Source of the DNA: Clostridiales bacterium GWD2_32_19
Lineage (GTDB): Bacteria > Bacillota > Clostridia > Lachnospirales > UBA12420
Length of the DNA stretch: 59,665 nt
Assembly: GCA_001795385.1 (NCBI GenBank)
Contig: MGOU01000006.1
Span: 1-59,665, forward strand
Reading direction: 5' to 3'
How positions within the stretch are numbered: the stretch's first letter is position 1; every line of letters starts with the position of its first letter. The position numbers and the translations under genes were made by a program. A model generated the notes under the pieces. That model had not been told where the DNA came from. It did not search any database and saw nothing but the letters and a program-made list of their open reading frames with translations. Below are positions 2,394 to 56,022 of the stretch, one piece after another.

Positions 2394-3329
2394 TTACTCG
2401 TCTAGTTTTTCTTCCGCGCCTTTTTTATCTTCTAGTGCTTTTAGTGCTTTTTCATCTACTTCTTCCATTTCATATTCATATTGATTTTTATGTGCACAAT
2501 TGCCTGCACATCCTACTACTTCTAGTTGTTCTGGGGTGTATACTCTTATTTCTGAATGCGTTTCTGTAGCGGTTTTGGTTAAAGAAACTCTTACTAACTC
2601 TTTTATACTATCTCTTCCTATTATAATGCCTTCTCTATTATCATCTGTTTTTACTTTACTTCCGATGTTTGGTATTCTCTTATTTACCTCTTCGTATAAA
2701 TCATTTTCATATGCTAGGCAGCACATAAGTCTTCCGCATATTCCTGATATTTTTACTGGGTTGAGAGATAAATTTTGTTCTTTTGCCATGTTGATAGACA
2801 CAGACTCAAAATTGTTTAGGTGAGTAGAACAACATAAGCATCTGCCACACATTCCTACTCCTCCGAGCATCTTTGTCTCGTCGCGTACCCCTATTTGCCT
2901 AAGCTCTATCCGTGTTTTAAACACTGCTGCTAGGTCTTTTACTAATTCTCTAAAATCCACCCTACCTGATGATACAAAGTAGAATATAAGCTTTGCGTTG
3001 TCAAATGTATACTTTACATCTATTAGTTTCATTTCTAATGAATGCTTTTGTACTTTTTTCTCGCAAATTACTAGTGCTTCTCTTTCTTTCTTTTTATTGA
3101 TCATATTTTGCTTTAGGTCGTTTTTATCTGCCGATCTTAATATGCTTTTTAGTGGAAGCTCTAACTCTTCCTCATTGACTTCTTTTCCTACAACGACTAT
3201 TTTACCAAACTCTAACCCTCTTACAGATTCAGCTATTACATTATAACCTACCTTTAACCTAGGATTATCATCACTGTAGTAATGAATCTTGCCATTCTTC
3301 CTGAACCGTACTCCATTTACTTTAATCAT
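2394..3329 (-). CDS. ricT: RicT / YaaT, PSP1-domain regulatory iron-sulfur protein
   Basis: The 311-residue product carries the PSP1 domain and its conserved cysteine cluster (GMCGRCLCC near residues 158-166 and GICGRLMCC near 194-202). In Bacillus, RicT acts with RicA and RicF, binds Fe-S clusters, and promotes RNase Y-dependent mRNA maturation and sporulation phosphorelay activity. Two further cysteines near residue 279 (CAGNCAHK) may also bind metal. The ATG at 3329 is preceded by CGGAGGT. It lies downstream of holB, the conserved Firmicutes arrangement. The gap between holB and ricT contains a 75-bp element duplicated elsewhere in the window. Confidence 0.93.
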   Translation of the reverse strand: MIKVNGVRFRKNGKIHYYSDDNPRLKVGYNVIAESVRGLEFGKIVVVGKEVNEEELELPLKSILRSADKNDLKQNMINKKKEREALVICEKKVQKHSLEMKLIDVKYTFDNAKLIFYFVSSGRVDFRELVKDLAAVFKTRIELRQIGVRDETKMLGGVGMCGRCLCCSTHLNNFESVSINMAKEQNLSLNPVKISGICGRLMCCLAYENDLYEEVNKRIPNIGSKVKTDDNREGIIIGRDSIKELVRVSLTKTATETHSEIRVYTPEQLEVVGCAGNCAHKNQYEYEMEEVDEKALKALEDKKGAEEKLDE

Positions 3330-3350
3330 ATTTGTACCTCCGTTGTGGAA

Positions 3351-3425
3351 AAGGTAGTATAAAATATTTATAGTACTAAATACTACACTATCCCTTTATA
3401 TTCAATATATTTTATCAGTATTATC
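3351..3425 (-). repeat. 75-bp leader element, copy 1 (upstream of ricT)
   Basis: The reverse complement of this stretch matches 42173-42247 with only two mismatches by eye. The element ends 21 bases before the ricT start codon. The other copy also ends 21 bases before its start codon, and in the same orientation relative to the gene. Part of it can fold into an imperfect hairpin closed by AAGG/CCTT ends. Confidence 0.85.
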
Positions 3426-3432
3426 ATCCCTT

Positions 3433-39416: not shown

Positions 39417-39531
39417 AAATGACAAAGAACAAAGAACTAAGTACAAAGATAAGAGTTGTTTAAGTTATATGTACTTTGTAGTTATATTTTGTATTTATAC
39501 TTTGTTATTTGTTCTTTGAACTTTGTACTTT
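39417..39531 (+). repeat. imperfect long inverted repeat between TadB- and TadC-like genes
   Basis: The left part (about 39417-39451, rich in acaaagaacaaag) and the right part (about 39499-39531, rich in ctttgttctttg) are largely complementary, so the mRNA could fold into a long imperfect hairpin. Similar caaag/ctttg-rich spacer occurs at 55740-55812. It might attenuate expression of the TadC-like gene. Confidence 0.45.
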
Positions 39532-39553
39532 GTATTTATTGGGGGTTTTATTT

Positions 39554-41941: not shown

Positions 41942-42172
41942 ATCTAAAGGTATTTAAAAATTAAGGTAAAAGTGATATAATATATATAAGTAAATTATTT
42001 TAAAATGTTTAGTTTAACAAAATTACTGCTACTGCATCATGAGTAGAGTGTTATTCGTATATTGGATTTGATTTTAAGGTAAACTACATTTTCAACATCT
42101 ACGAGAACCCTATAAAAAGTTTGTAAAATACAAAACCAAGTATTAGGATGTCGCAATGATAGGGAGAGGGAA
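41942..42172. other. non-coding spacer with a decayed dispersed repeat
   Basis: This is part of a 443-base gap. The reverse complement of about 42097-42163 resembles 9361-9427 (both read cctNtcattgcNacatccta, then acttggttt). No coding frame with a ribosome site is seen. The 75-bp leader element follows directly. Confidence 0.6.
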
Positions 42173-42247
42173 GATAATACTGATAAGATATATTGAATAT
42201 AAAGGGATAGTGTAGTATTTAGTACTATAAATATTTTACACTACCTT
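42173..42247 (+). repeat. 75-bp leader element, copy 2 (upstream of pilin-like gene C)
   Basis: This is near-identical, in inverted orientation on the chromosome, to 3351-3425 upstream of ricT. It ends 21 bases before the start codon. From 42202 it can fold as an imperfect hairpin (aagggatagtgta pairing towards tacactacctt). Confidence 0.85.
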
Positions 42248-42268
42248 ATTTACAGAGGGGGAGATTTA

Positions 42269-42682
42269 ATGGAAAAGATAGTATATATCATTGTTTCAAG
42301 TGTGGCTATATTAGCAATTATGGGTGTCATATTAAATTTATTTAGAACAGATCATGCTGTTTTATATGCAGTAACAACTCAAACAGATGATATGAAAAAA
42401 GTTAATGCAGATGGGATGACTAATACAAATACATACATAGGAGCAGATGTAATATCTTTTTTAAGGTATAATAAAGATAGCGACATGACAATTGATGTAG
42501 ATTTCCTAGCAGGTGACATAAGGACTGTAGATACAATTGATAGAAATGAAGATATAAATATTATAGTCAAAAAAATTAGAGAGGGAAGTAAAATGGTTGG
42601 AATTAATGAAGTAGCTTATACTGATTTAAATTTTAGTGTTGAGGTTGCAACACAAAATCTGTATAAATTTAAAATTAATTAA
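42269..42682 (+). CDS. small leaderless pilin-like protein C
   Basis: The 137-residue protein starts with a transmembrane helix (about 4-24), then a polar domain containing YIGADVISFLRYNKD (about 56-70), shared with proteins A and D. There is no basic leader or prepilin cleavage motif. The ribosome site is GGGGGAG. The 75-bp duplicated leader lies directly upstream, so its control may differ from the rest of the locus. A minor pilin role is inferred. Confidence 0.6.
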   Translation: MEKIVYIIVSSVAILAIMGVILNLFRTDHAVLYAVTTQTDDMKKVNADGMTNTNTYIGADVISFLRYNKDSDMTIDVDFLAGDIRTVDTIDRNEDINIIVKKIREGSKMVGINEVAYTDLNFSVEVATQNLYKFKIN

Positions 42683-52515: not shown

Positions 52516-53895
52516 TTATTTACCTAAACAGAATCTGCTAAAGATACTGTGTATTATATCTTCGCTTACTGATTCTCCTGTTATCTCGCCTAAATATCGA
52601 TATGCATTTTGCAAGTCAATAGCTAGAAGCTCTTGAGTATGAAGGAGTTTTATACTAGTTAAGACATTAGATAGGCTTTCCTCAGCCTTATTTAATGCAT
52701 TCTTGTGTCTTACATTTGTTAAAATAACTTCATTGTTTACATCAATTTCGCCGGACATAAATATTTTCTTTATTGTTTTCTCAAGATCATCAAGTCCTGT
52801 GTTTTGTGTAATAGAAAGCTTTATGATAGGAACATTATTTATGGAGTCACCAAGAATAGAAAAGTCAATAGCCTCGGGTAAGTCGGATTTATTTAAAATT
52901 ATTATATGTTTTTTATCTTTTATTCTTTCTAAGATGCTAATATCTTCGTCTGATATGGGTGATGAGTTATCTAGAATAAATAAAATCAGCTCAGCTGAAT
53001 CAATCGCTCTTCTTGATAGATCAACGCCTATTTTCTCAACAACATCTTCTGTTTCACGGATACCTGCTGTATCAACGAGTTTTAGAGGAATTCCATGTAA
53101 GTTAACATATTCTTCAATTAAATCTCTAGTAGTACCAGGTATATCAGTTACAATAGCTCGCTGTTCGCCAATTAAGGCATTGAGTAGAGAAGACTTGCCA
53201 ACATTTGGCTTTCCTACTATTGCAGTTGAGATACCTTCACGAATTATTTTACCTGTATCCGAAGTTGTGAGTAATGATTTTATTTCAGTGTTTATTTGGA
53301 TGACGGTAGTTTCTATTGTATCAATAGATAGCTGCTCAATATCGTATTCGGGATAATCTATATTTACTTCTATGTGAGAAAGTAAATCTGCAACGCTATT
53401 TTTAAGAGCAGATATTTTATGAGATAGAGAGCCCTCAAGTTGATTTACGGCAGATTGGCGTGAAAGGTCTGTTTTAGCAGTTATTAAGTCAATTACGGAC
53501 TCTGCTTGTGACAAATCGAGTCTTCCGTTTAAGAACGCACGCTTGGTAAATTCACCGGGTTCTGCGAGGTCAGCACCATATTTAAGAACTGCATCAAGTA
53601 CTCTTTGTGTAGGAATAATACCGCCGTGGCAGTTTATTTCAACAATATCCTCCTTGGTGTAAGTATTAGGCTTTTTCATCACAGATACAAGCACTTCGTC
53701 AATAGTTTTGCCTTCATCAGCAATTATTCCAAAGTGAATGGTATGGGATTTTGCTTCTGATATATCCTTTGTATGTTTAGGTACAAATATTTTTTTAATG
53801 ATAGTAAATGCATTCTCACCACTTATCCTAATAATAGATATACCGCCACTCCCAACAGGGGTGGATATTGCTGCAACAGTTAAGCTGTTTTCCAT
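52516..53895 (-). CDS. mnmE: tRNA modification GTPase MnmE
   Basis: At 459 residues this is a full-length MnmE (TrmE). It has an N-terminal tetrahydrofolate-binding domain, a helical domain, an inserted G domain (GKPNVGKSSLLNAL near 224, DIPGTTRD, DTAGIRETED), and the invariant C-terminal FCLGK that carries the catalytic cysteine. It forms the MnmEG complex with mnmG. TAGGAGGT precedes the ATG. Confidence 0.97.
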   Translation of the reverse strand: MENSLTVAAISTPVGSGGISIIRISGENAFTIIKKIFVPKHTKDISEAKSHTIHFGIIADEGKTIDEVLVSVMKKPNTYTKEDIVEINCHGGIIPTQRVLDAVLKYGADLAEPGEFTKRAFLNGRLDLSQAESVIDLITAKTDLSRQSAVNQLEGSLSHKISALKNSVADLLSHIEVNIDYPEYDIEQLSIDTIETTVIQINTEIKSLLTTSDTGKIIREGISTAIVGKPNVGKSSLLNALIGEQRAIVTDIPGTTRDLIEEYVNLHGIPLKLVDTAGIRETEDVVEKIGVDLSRRAIDSAELILFILDNSSPISDEDISILERIKDKKHIIILNKSDLPEAIDFSILGDSINNVPIIKLSITQNTGLDDLEKTIKKIFMSGEIDVNNEVILTNVRHKNALNKAEESLSNVLTSIKLLHTQELLAIDLQNAYRYLGEITGESVSEDIIHSIFSRFCLGK

Positions 53896-54003
53896 AAATA
53901 ATGACCTCCTAAGTAAACTTTTGACACTATCGAAAAATAAGATCTTTCACTACTATCATCTAGTGTAGTGAAAGATCCATTTTCAGATATCAGTAACTAA
54001 TAT

Positions 54004-55720: not shown

Positions 55721-55812
55721 GTTTTAGACCTCCGGTTTTTTCAAAGTACAAATTAATTTAAAGTACAGAGTAGAAAGTTAATATAACTTTATTCCTTATT
55801 ATTTGTACTTTG

Positions 55813-56022
55813 TTATTTCAATGGATCATATCCTCCCTTGTGAAAAGGATGACATTTTAGAATACGTAGTATTGCGAGCGCAGAACCTTTGAATATACCA
55901 TATTTTTTTATCGCTTGATATGAATATTGTGAGCAGGTAGGTATAAATCTGCAAGTTCTGGGAGTAAAAGGCGAAATATATTTTTGGTACAGTGATATTA
56001 AAAACAGAAAAACATGTCTCAT
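55813..56022 (-). CDS. yidD: membrane protein insertion efficiency factor YidD
   Basis: A 69-residue protein with the YidD signature ([31 protein letters not shown] and [10 protein letters not shown]). It assists YidC in membrane insertion. Its ATG overlaps the rnpA stop by 4 bases (ATGA), indicating coupling. Confidence 0.96.

Follow-up and report, generated by a model that had tools for sequence, protein, structure and literature searches.

The window analysed here, the whole stretch of 59,665 nucleotides that is contig C6 of a 1.97-Mb draft genome (G000), holds two near-identical copies of a 75-base sequence. They lie on opposite strands at 42173-42247 (+) and 3351-3425 (-), with two differences per 75 bases, and each precedes a start codon, at 42269 (+) and 3329 (-). 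All of this had been noticed in the sequence-only reading, which placed the copies 21 bases before the two starts. The spacing is indeed equal at both genes, but the true end of the element is the shared end at 42245 and 3353 (...CACTACC), which places both copies 23 nt before their start codons. Only these two places in the window are matched by patterns of 43 and 31 bases with up to three mismatches (mean of 0 in 100 shuffles), and the homology of both copies reaches leftward past the 75 bases, to about 42161 and about 3431.

The copy on the forward strand ends in a 40-bp nearly palindromic core, GATAGTGT...ACACTACC (42206..42245, +), which is the right end of the element and its smallest commonly found form. 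The core is preceded by a left extension, AGGGAGAGGGAAGATAATACTGATAAGATATATTGAATATAAAGG (42161..42205, +), common to most other copies; the left end of the element was not recognised in this copy (42161-42245). Further to the left lies a diverged copy, identified by eye, of another dispersed repeat (...AACCAAGTATTAGGATGTCGCAATGA; 42101..42159, +) that adjoins many element copies on this side. A 23-nt spacer with the Shine-Dalgarno sequence AGGGGG at 42256-42261 (42246..42268, +) separates the element from an open reading frame of 137 amino acids (42269..42682, +), previously described as the pilin-like gene C, for which a Pfam search gave no match. In the second copy, the left extension (3393..3431, -) begins directly after the stop codon of holB, and the 40-bp core (3353..3392, -) is followed by a 23-nt spacer with the Shine-Dalgarno sequence CGGAGG (3330..3352, -). 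The gene behind it, ricT (2394..3329, -), encodes a PSP1 domain protein, and its earlier label is supported by the PSP1 match (E 2e-35). Elsewhere in the window, TTTGTACTTTG repeats at about 39454-39553 (+) and about 55721-55815 (-) stand upstream of two genes, both at -32 from the start codon; possibly they are a simple-sequence leader repeat or another family.

A search of the whole genome for further copies, as had been proposed, revealed a family of at least 63, that is, at least 61 beyond the two of the window. The core pattern (up to three mismatches) matched 53 times in the own genome and its reversed control 0 times, the left-end pattern matched 19 times and a shorter form of it 28 times. 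The right-end pattern gave 67 matches versus 9 for its reversed control. These 67 comprise 59 copies, one left end on the opposite strand (next to L030) and seven matches set aside as chance (L230, L232, L233 and L235-L238), which lack the remaining parts of the element and do not stand at a gene start; calling these seven chance is a judgement, made with the 9 matches of the reversed control in view. The working set of 63 consists of the 59 copies and of L031, L044, L059 and L068, which the right-end pattern missed. A core-like match without element ends (L016, position 2667) is excluded from all counts. An event limited to two copies, or linked to an inversion between 3351 and 42247, is ruled out by the presence of at least 63 copies across many contigs. 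Along the right-hand 61 nt, similarity to the consensus exceeds 85% in 38 copies, whose mean pairwise identity is 0.95. The left end stands alone at six sites (L174, L175, L176, L177, L190 and L197), one of which is a relic in the window (GATAGTGTCAAAAGT; 53917..53931, -), directly before the Shine-Dalgarno sequence of the open reading frame 52516-53895 (-). Other dispersed repeats adjoin the left part in many copies. At many loci, for example L003, L007, L029 and L030, and in the window at 42101-42159, a second dispersed repeat (CTATGTCTAGGTTTGCACAATACACAAACCAAGTCTTAGGATGTCGCAATGAC and GTCATTGCGAG...) is often found next to or within the left part of the element, and it occurs in both orientations.

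A start codon lies 21-26 nt behind the right end in 61 of the 63 copies (56 ATG, 3 TTG and 2 GTG), and the orientation relative to the gene is identical in all 61. The distance is 21 nt in one copy, 22 in five, 23 in 45, 24 in eight, and 25 and 26 in one each, so that 58 of the 61 fall at 22-24 nt. The start was taken as the ATG nearest to 23 within 19-27 nt, or else as GTG or TTG, a rule that favours 23 in a few ambiguous cases. By base composition, an ATG is expected at one given position in only about 1/63 of cases (hand estimate), and the rule therefore cannot create the peak at 23. Downstream open frames are very short at L019 and L066. Two copies, L031 and L034, have no start codon at this distance. 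L031 (G000 C32:10000-13900, at about 1942) lies in a transposase-like remnant that resembles a gene of the sister species, beside the Shine-Dalgarno-like motif GAGGTGG, which would fit targeting by sequence only. Judged by its residues, the sister homologue of this remnant resembles a transposase of the Y1/RAYT type. The sequence-only reading had held that many copies at random positions relative to genes would tell against a functional leader; copies are many, but 61 of 63 stand at a start codon, and the fixed distance to unrelated genes, as opposed to random placement, holds genome-wide.

The architecture of the copies is that of a mobile element. Full copies carry a left end, GATAGTGTCAAAA, and a right end, TTTKACACTACC, which are imperfect inverted repeats, as expected for the termini of a MITE. 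When the 8 bases just outside each end were compared, 14 of the 63 copies had perfect 8-bp target duplications and 3 more matched at 7 of 8 bases, again in line with the fixed-length duplications of MITEs. In 2000 shuffles with re-paired flanks, perfect duplications had a mean of 0.33 and a maximum of 4, and those of 7/8 or better a mean of 0.73 and a maximum of 4. The other 46 copies have no duplication of 7/8 or better, mostly because their left end is lost or recombined. The 17 duplication-flanked copies are 21, 26, 28, 34, 40 (three copies), 43, 69, 71, 90, 98, 108, 130, 188, 260 and 329 bp long; with this range, no coding capacity and at least 63 copies, the element is as short and as multicopy as a MITE should be. 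Right ends are common to copies of different length. The 40-bp unit, a nearly perfect palindrome that folds as a hairpin, has perfect 8-bp target duplications by itself at L061, L063 and L072. The 21-35-bp forms have probably arisen from longer ones by internal deletion across short repeats.

A partner transposon sharing the element ends, which is also expected for a MITE, was not found in searches of three transposase families in the draft assembly: PF00872, PF01610 and PF12762 (IS256, ISL3 and IS1595 transposases) had no match in the own draft genome. A lost or unassembled autonomous partner remains compatible with these negatives. In 294 other genomes of the order, a 21-mer of the terminal inverted repeat had four single chance-like matches only, all in or beside other genes without a transposon; the own genome was matched as well. 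An IS200/IS605-derived element or a REP, moved by a Y1 transposase and leaving no target duplication, was also considered and rejected, since 8-bp duplications are present.

The distribution of the element points to a young age. It was not found in the sister genome G001, whose RicT is 94% identical, apart from one weak 27-base match, and in about 637 kb of G001 compared, none of 15 orthologous gene starts carries it (L002, L009, L013, L015, L016, L020, L021, L022, L023, L026, L039, L055, L063, L071 and L185; L019, L024, L031 and L034 were left out, their alignments being short of the start). At L185, AAATCAAA stands once in the empty sister site and flanks the element on both sides in the filled one. 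At ricT, the two species can be aligned again from precisely the right end of the element onward (3330..3352), although G001 has another short insert there. The sister in turn has a REP-like hairpin repeat of its own, CCCCTTCGCAGGGG, which precedes several genes by varying distances (loci L118-L137); one lies near the sister's ricT and another near its metG, two sites that are filled by the element in the own genome. Weak matches in G001, G012, G030 and G035 were judged by inspection not to be copies, an inspection that covered all of them but L074 and L077. A k-mer test for sequences at fixed positions before starts found no such family in G001 (286 kb; top count 2 of 215 starts) or in G002 (358 kb; top count 3 of 281), against 28 of 167 at the own loci, which had been selected because they carry the element. 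A collection of genomes from 84,980 species, which may exclude the own genome of the window, does not contain the exact 23-mer core. A 21-mer of the core, and nothing beyond it, is shared by two IMG/VR contigs (L101:7968-7988, -, and L102:5489-5509, -). Both matches sit just before a start codon and contain TATAAATA, which resembles the late promoters of T4-type phages. There are no 8-bp duplications and no element ends on these viral contigs, a phage origin was rejected, and the match is read as coincidence. The element family is young and species-specific.

Target genes share no common function. Among the 61, 30 were chosen for length or interest and put to Pfam, which gave matches in 28 (none for L003 and L001). 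They include tRNA synthetases (valS, metG and pheS types), PGK, PFK, PlsX-like, HolA, FabH-like and HflX-like proteins, an AP endonuclease, DapF, BacA, a pseudouridine synthase, an amino acid kinase family protein that reads as PyrH, ScpB, XseB, FliJ, ribulose-phosphate epimerase, transporters and others. Copies often lie inside operons, and in 14 of 54 an upstream stop codon on the same strand is no more than 60 nt away from where the core starts, for example that of holB, the gene preceding ricT, or that of the gene before xseB; the address is therefore independent of promoters. Five loci were searched for T-box leaders, and three had one on the upstream side of the element, at L009:1165-1416 (valS), L004:1766-2047 (pheS) and L071:1638-1818 (metG); in each case the element separates the T-box from the start codon. 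Upstream promoter-like sequence is, by eye, conserved in the sister at L039 and L020. Given these T-boxes, stop codons and promoter-like sequences upstream, the element probably sits within the transcribed leader.

Both the start codon and the Shine-Dalgarno sequence stand out in a logo of the right flank, with GGRGG at +12 to +16, the start codon at +24 to +26, and no pyrimidine at +13, +15 and +16 among 54 copies. Over the 61 copies, the variance is 0.48 from element end to start codon, 1.52 from element end to Shine-Dalgarno sequence and 1.29 from Shine-Dalgarno sequence to start codon. When the last of these distances was re-paired among copies in 20000 permutations, none reached 0.48 (mean 2.81, minimum 1.47). 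The Shine-Dalgarno sequence was placed by base-pairing to the 16S tail, and errors in this placement inflate its variance, so that the result is strong but not absolute; an anchor free of parameters, the last GG, gave a variance of 1.92. In the 16 copies that have both a start codon and a duplication of 7/8 or 8/8, the distance is 23 nt in 14 and 24 nt in two, with a variance of 0.11 against 1.48 for the Shine-Dalgarno sequence. Shine-Dalgarno spacing itself is alike in target genes and others (38 vs 147 starts, KS p 0.80). The start codon, and not the Shine-Dalgarno sequence, is the tighter ruler, a conclusion of the strength just given.

These observations can be set against the explanations that have been, or could be, offered for the leader in the window. 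The sequence-only reading preferred a functional 5′ cassette, that is, a common promoter or RNA regulator marking out a regulon, with copies that selection or gene conversion keeps identical. The fixed distance and orientation, the mean pairwise identity of about 95% over 61 nt in 38 copies, and the stable hairpin of the 75-mer (-14 kcal/mol, z -1.9) are what such a cassette would show. However, it is hard to reconcile with genes that lack a common function, with native leaders lying upstream of the element, with perfect 8-bp duplications around many copies, and with sister orthologues that do without it. In addition, a search of Rfam with the element, whose family is confined to one species, gave no match to a structured cis-regulatory RNA, a simple scan for sigma-70-like sites on the strand of the gene found none (the core does contain TATAAATA), and core-only and 21-35-bp copies keep the address though the rest is lost. 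A cassette of this kind is thus highly improbable. The alternative named in the same reading, a recent small mobile insertion, agrees with the inverted ends, the 8-bp target duplications and the absence from the sister species. Read from the DNA alone, transposition would account for all three, and we consider it likely that the leader in the window is the right-hand part of a small non-autonomous MITE-like element that has recently spread in one species and is guided to translation-start regions.

How the address arises can be explained in several ways. Insertion might be random or weakly biased and be followed by very strict selection for one orientation at 22-24 nt before the start. Only the ribosome reads a start codon, so selection on translation could use such a ruler, and a hairpin nearer than about 22 nt would clash with the ribosome. 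There is no obvious reason, however, why copies at 26-60 nt should be removed, and apart from L031 and L034 no copies are found between genes, in dispensable genes or reversed. The duplication-flanked copies are also the tightest, as expected if insertion itself sets the address, and such filtering after insertion appears quite unlikely. Plain sequence specificity, in which the transposase reads the Shine-Dalgarno sequence (GGRGG, 11-15 bp away from the cut) and the position of the start codon is a passive consequence, would explain the strong GGRGG signal with its excluded pyrimidines and the position of L031 at a Shine-Dalgarno-like motif without a start codon. Recognition of the Shine-Dalgarno sequence by itself is at odds with the spacing, which varies less to the start codon than to the Shine-Dalgarno sequence (none of the 20000 permutations was as tight). 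Moreover, 8-mers of the window that score at least as high as the median target number 45 within genes and 28 in intergenic sequence away from starts, compared with 28 at starts (located with simple gene calls); a Shine-Dalgarno-like motif alone would therefore offer many other sites, yet 61 of 63 copies are at starts. This explanation is rather unlikely, and a composite DNA motif of Shine-Dalgarno sequence and ATG, read by the transposase, is a further possibility.

For the guided insertion that we favour, the following course may be envisaged. The target duplications would place a cut with an 8-bp stagger, made by a putative transposase, in the interval from about -23 to -16 counted from the start codon, and this transposase would be directed in a polar way to translation-start regions. 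Insertion there would spare the promoter, the Shine-Dalgarno sequence and the coding sequence, so that copies could be tolerated even before essential genes, and the inserted element would then probably be transcribed as a hairpin in the 5′ untranslated region. A candidate for the ruler is RNA polymerase paused at the start codon, with its rear edge close to the cut; in a hand calculation from polymerase footprints, this edge would lie near -16, where it would touch the cut. In E. coli, according to passages of PMC10268239, start codons are enriched in pauses of the type -10G, -1Y and +1G, and PMC5234074 attributes start-codon pausing to both E. coli and B. subtilis. When the pause consensus is aligned with the target logo, the Shine-Dalgarno guanines come close to position -10, and -1/+1 is taken by the TG of the start codon. 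Against this model, pauses occur inside genes too, and the pause sequences of B. subtilis differ from the E. coli consensus, as stated in a section of a review (PMC7819879). Integration guided by RNA polymerase paused at start codons, or by a coupled 30S/RNA polymerase complex, and not by a DNA motif, is thus put forward as a proposal and not as a result; it is a tentative idea that may well prove wrong, and it would be the bacterial counterpart of the polymerase-guided integration of Ty3 and TRE5.

Several known systems share some of these properties. Tn7 (at attTn7 of glmS) and other site-directed bacterial transposons also insert in a specific orientation at a fixed distance from a recognised site. 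Tn7 uses a single site per genome and makes 5-bp duplications, whereas the present element has about sixty sites and 8-bp duplications. Mobile promoters and REP-REPIN sequences are likewise short dispersed repeats upstream of genes; for the element, the simple scan showed no promoter-like site on the strand of the gene, and the REP-like repeat of the sister stands at variable distances. Bacterial MITEs such as BOX, RUP, SPRITE, Correia elements and Nezha, as described in parts of PMC3049150, are also short, AT-rich and non-autonomous, with terminal inverted repeats, a strong hairpin, target duplications and many copies. In contrast to the element, pneumococcal MITE-like repeats are given no fixed start-codon distance in those parts (PMC3049150). 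The minimal forms of the element are also much shorter, and no partner IS was found among the three transposase families searched. Ty3 of yeast and DGLT-A and TRE5 of Dictyostelium also have a fixed address upstream of genes, a safe site in a compact genome: in passages of PMC5006619, Ty3 is located 1-4 bp from tRNA start sites via TFIIIB, DGLT-A at about 15 bp and TRE5 at about 50 bp, and contact with the bound transcription machinery is one explanation for such retrotransposons targeting tRNA genes. These are, however, eukaryotic retrotransposons that read Pol III promoters, whereas here a DNA element of bacteria takes its distance from the start codon of protein genes, whatever the position of the promoter.

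No element at a fixed distance from start codons was found in the open-access literature searched, and an address 23 nt before start codons would be new for a mobile element. If the targeting is confirmed, translation starts would be the safe landing sites of this mobile element in a dense genome, and its copies could serve as a natural annotation of start codons. The steering of bacterial transposition by paused or coupled transcription-translation complexes would then become testable, and the transposase would be a candidate tool for bringing cargo into the 5′ leaders of many genes without breaking them.
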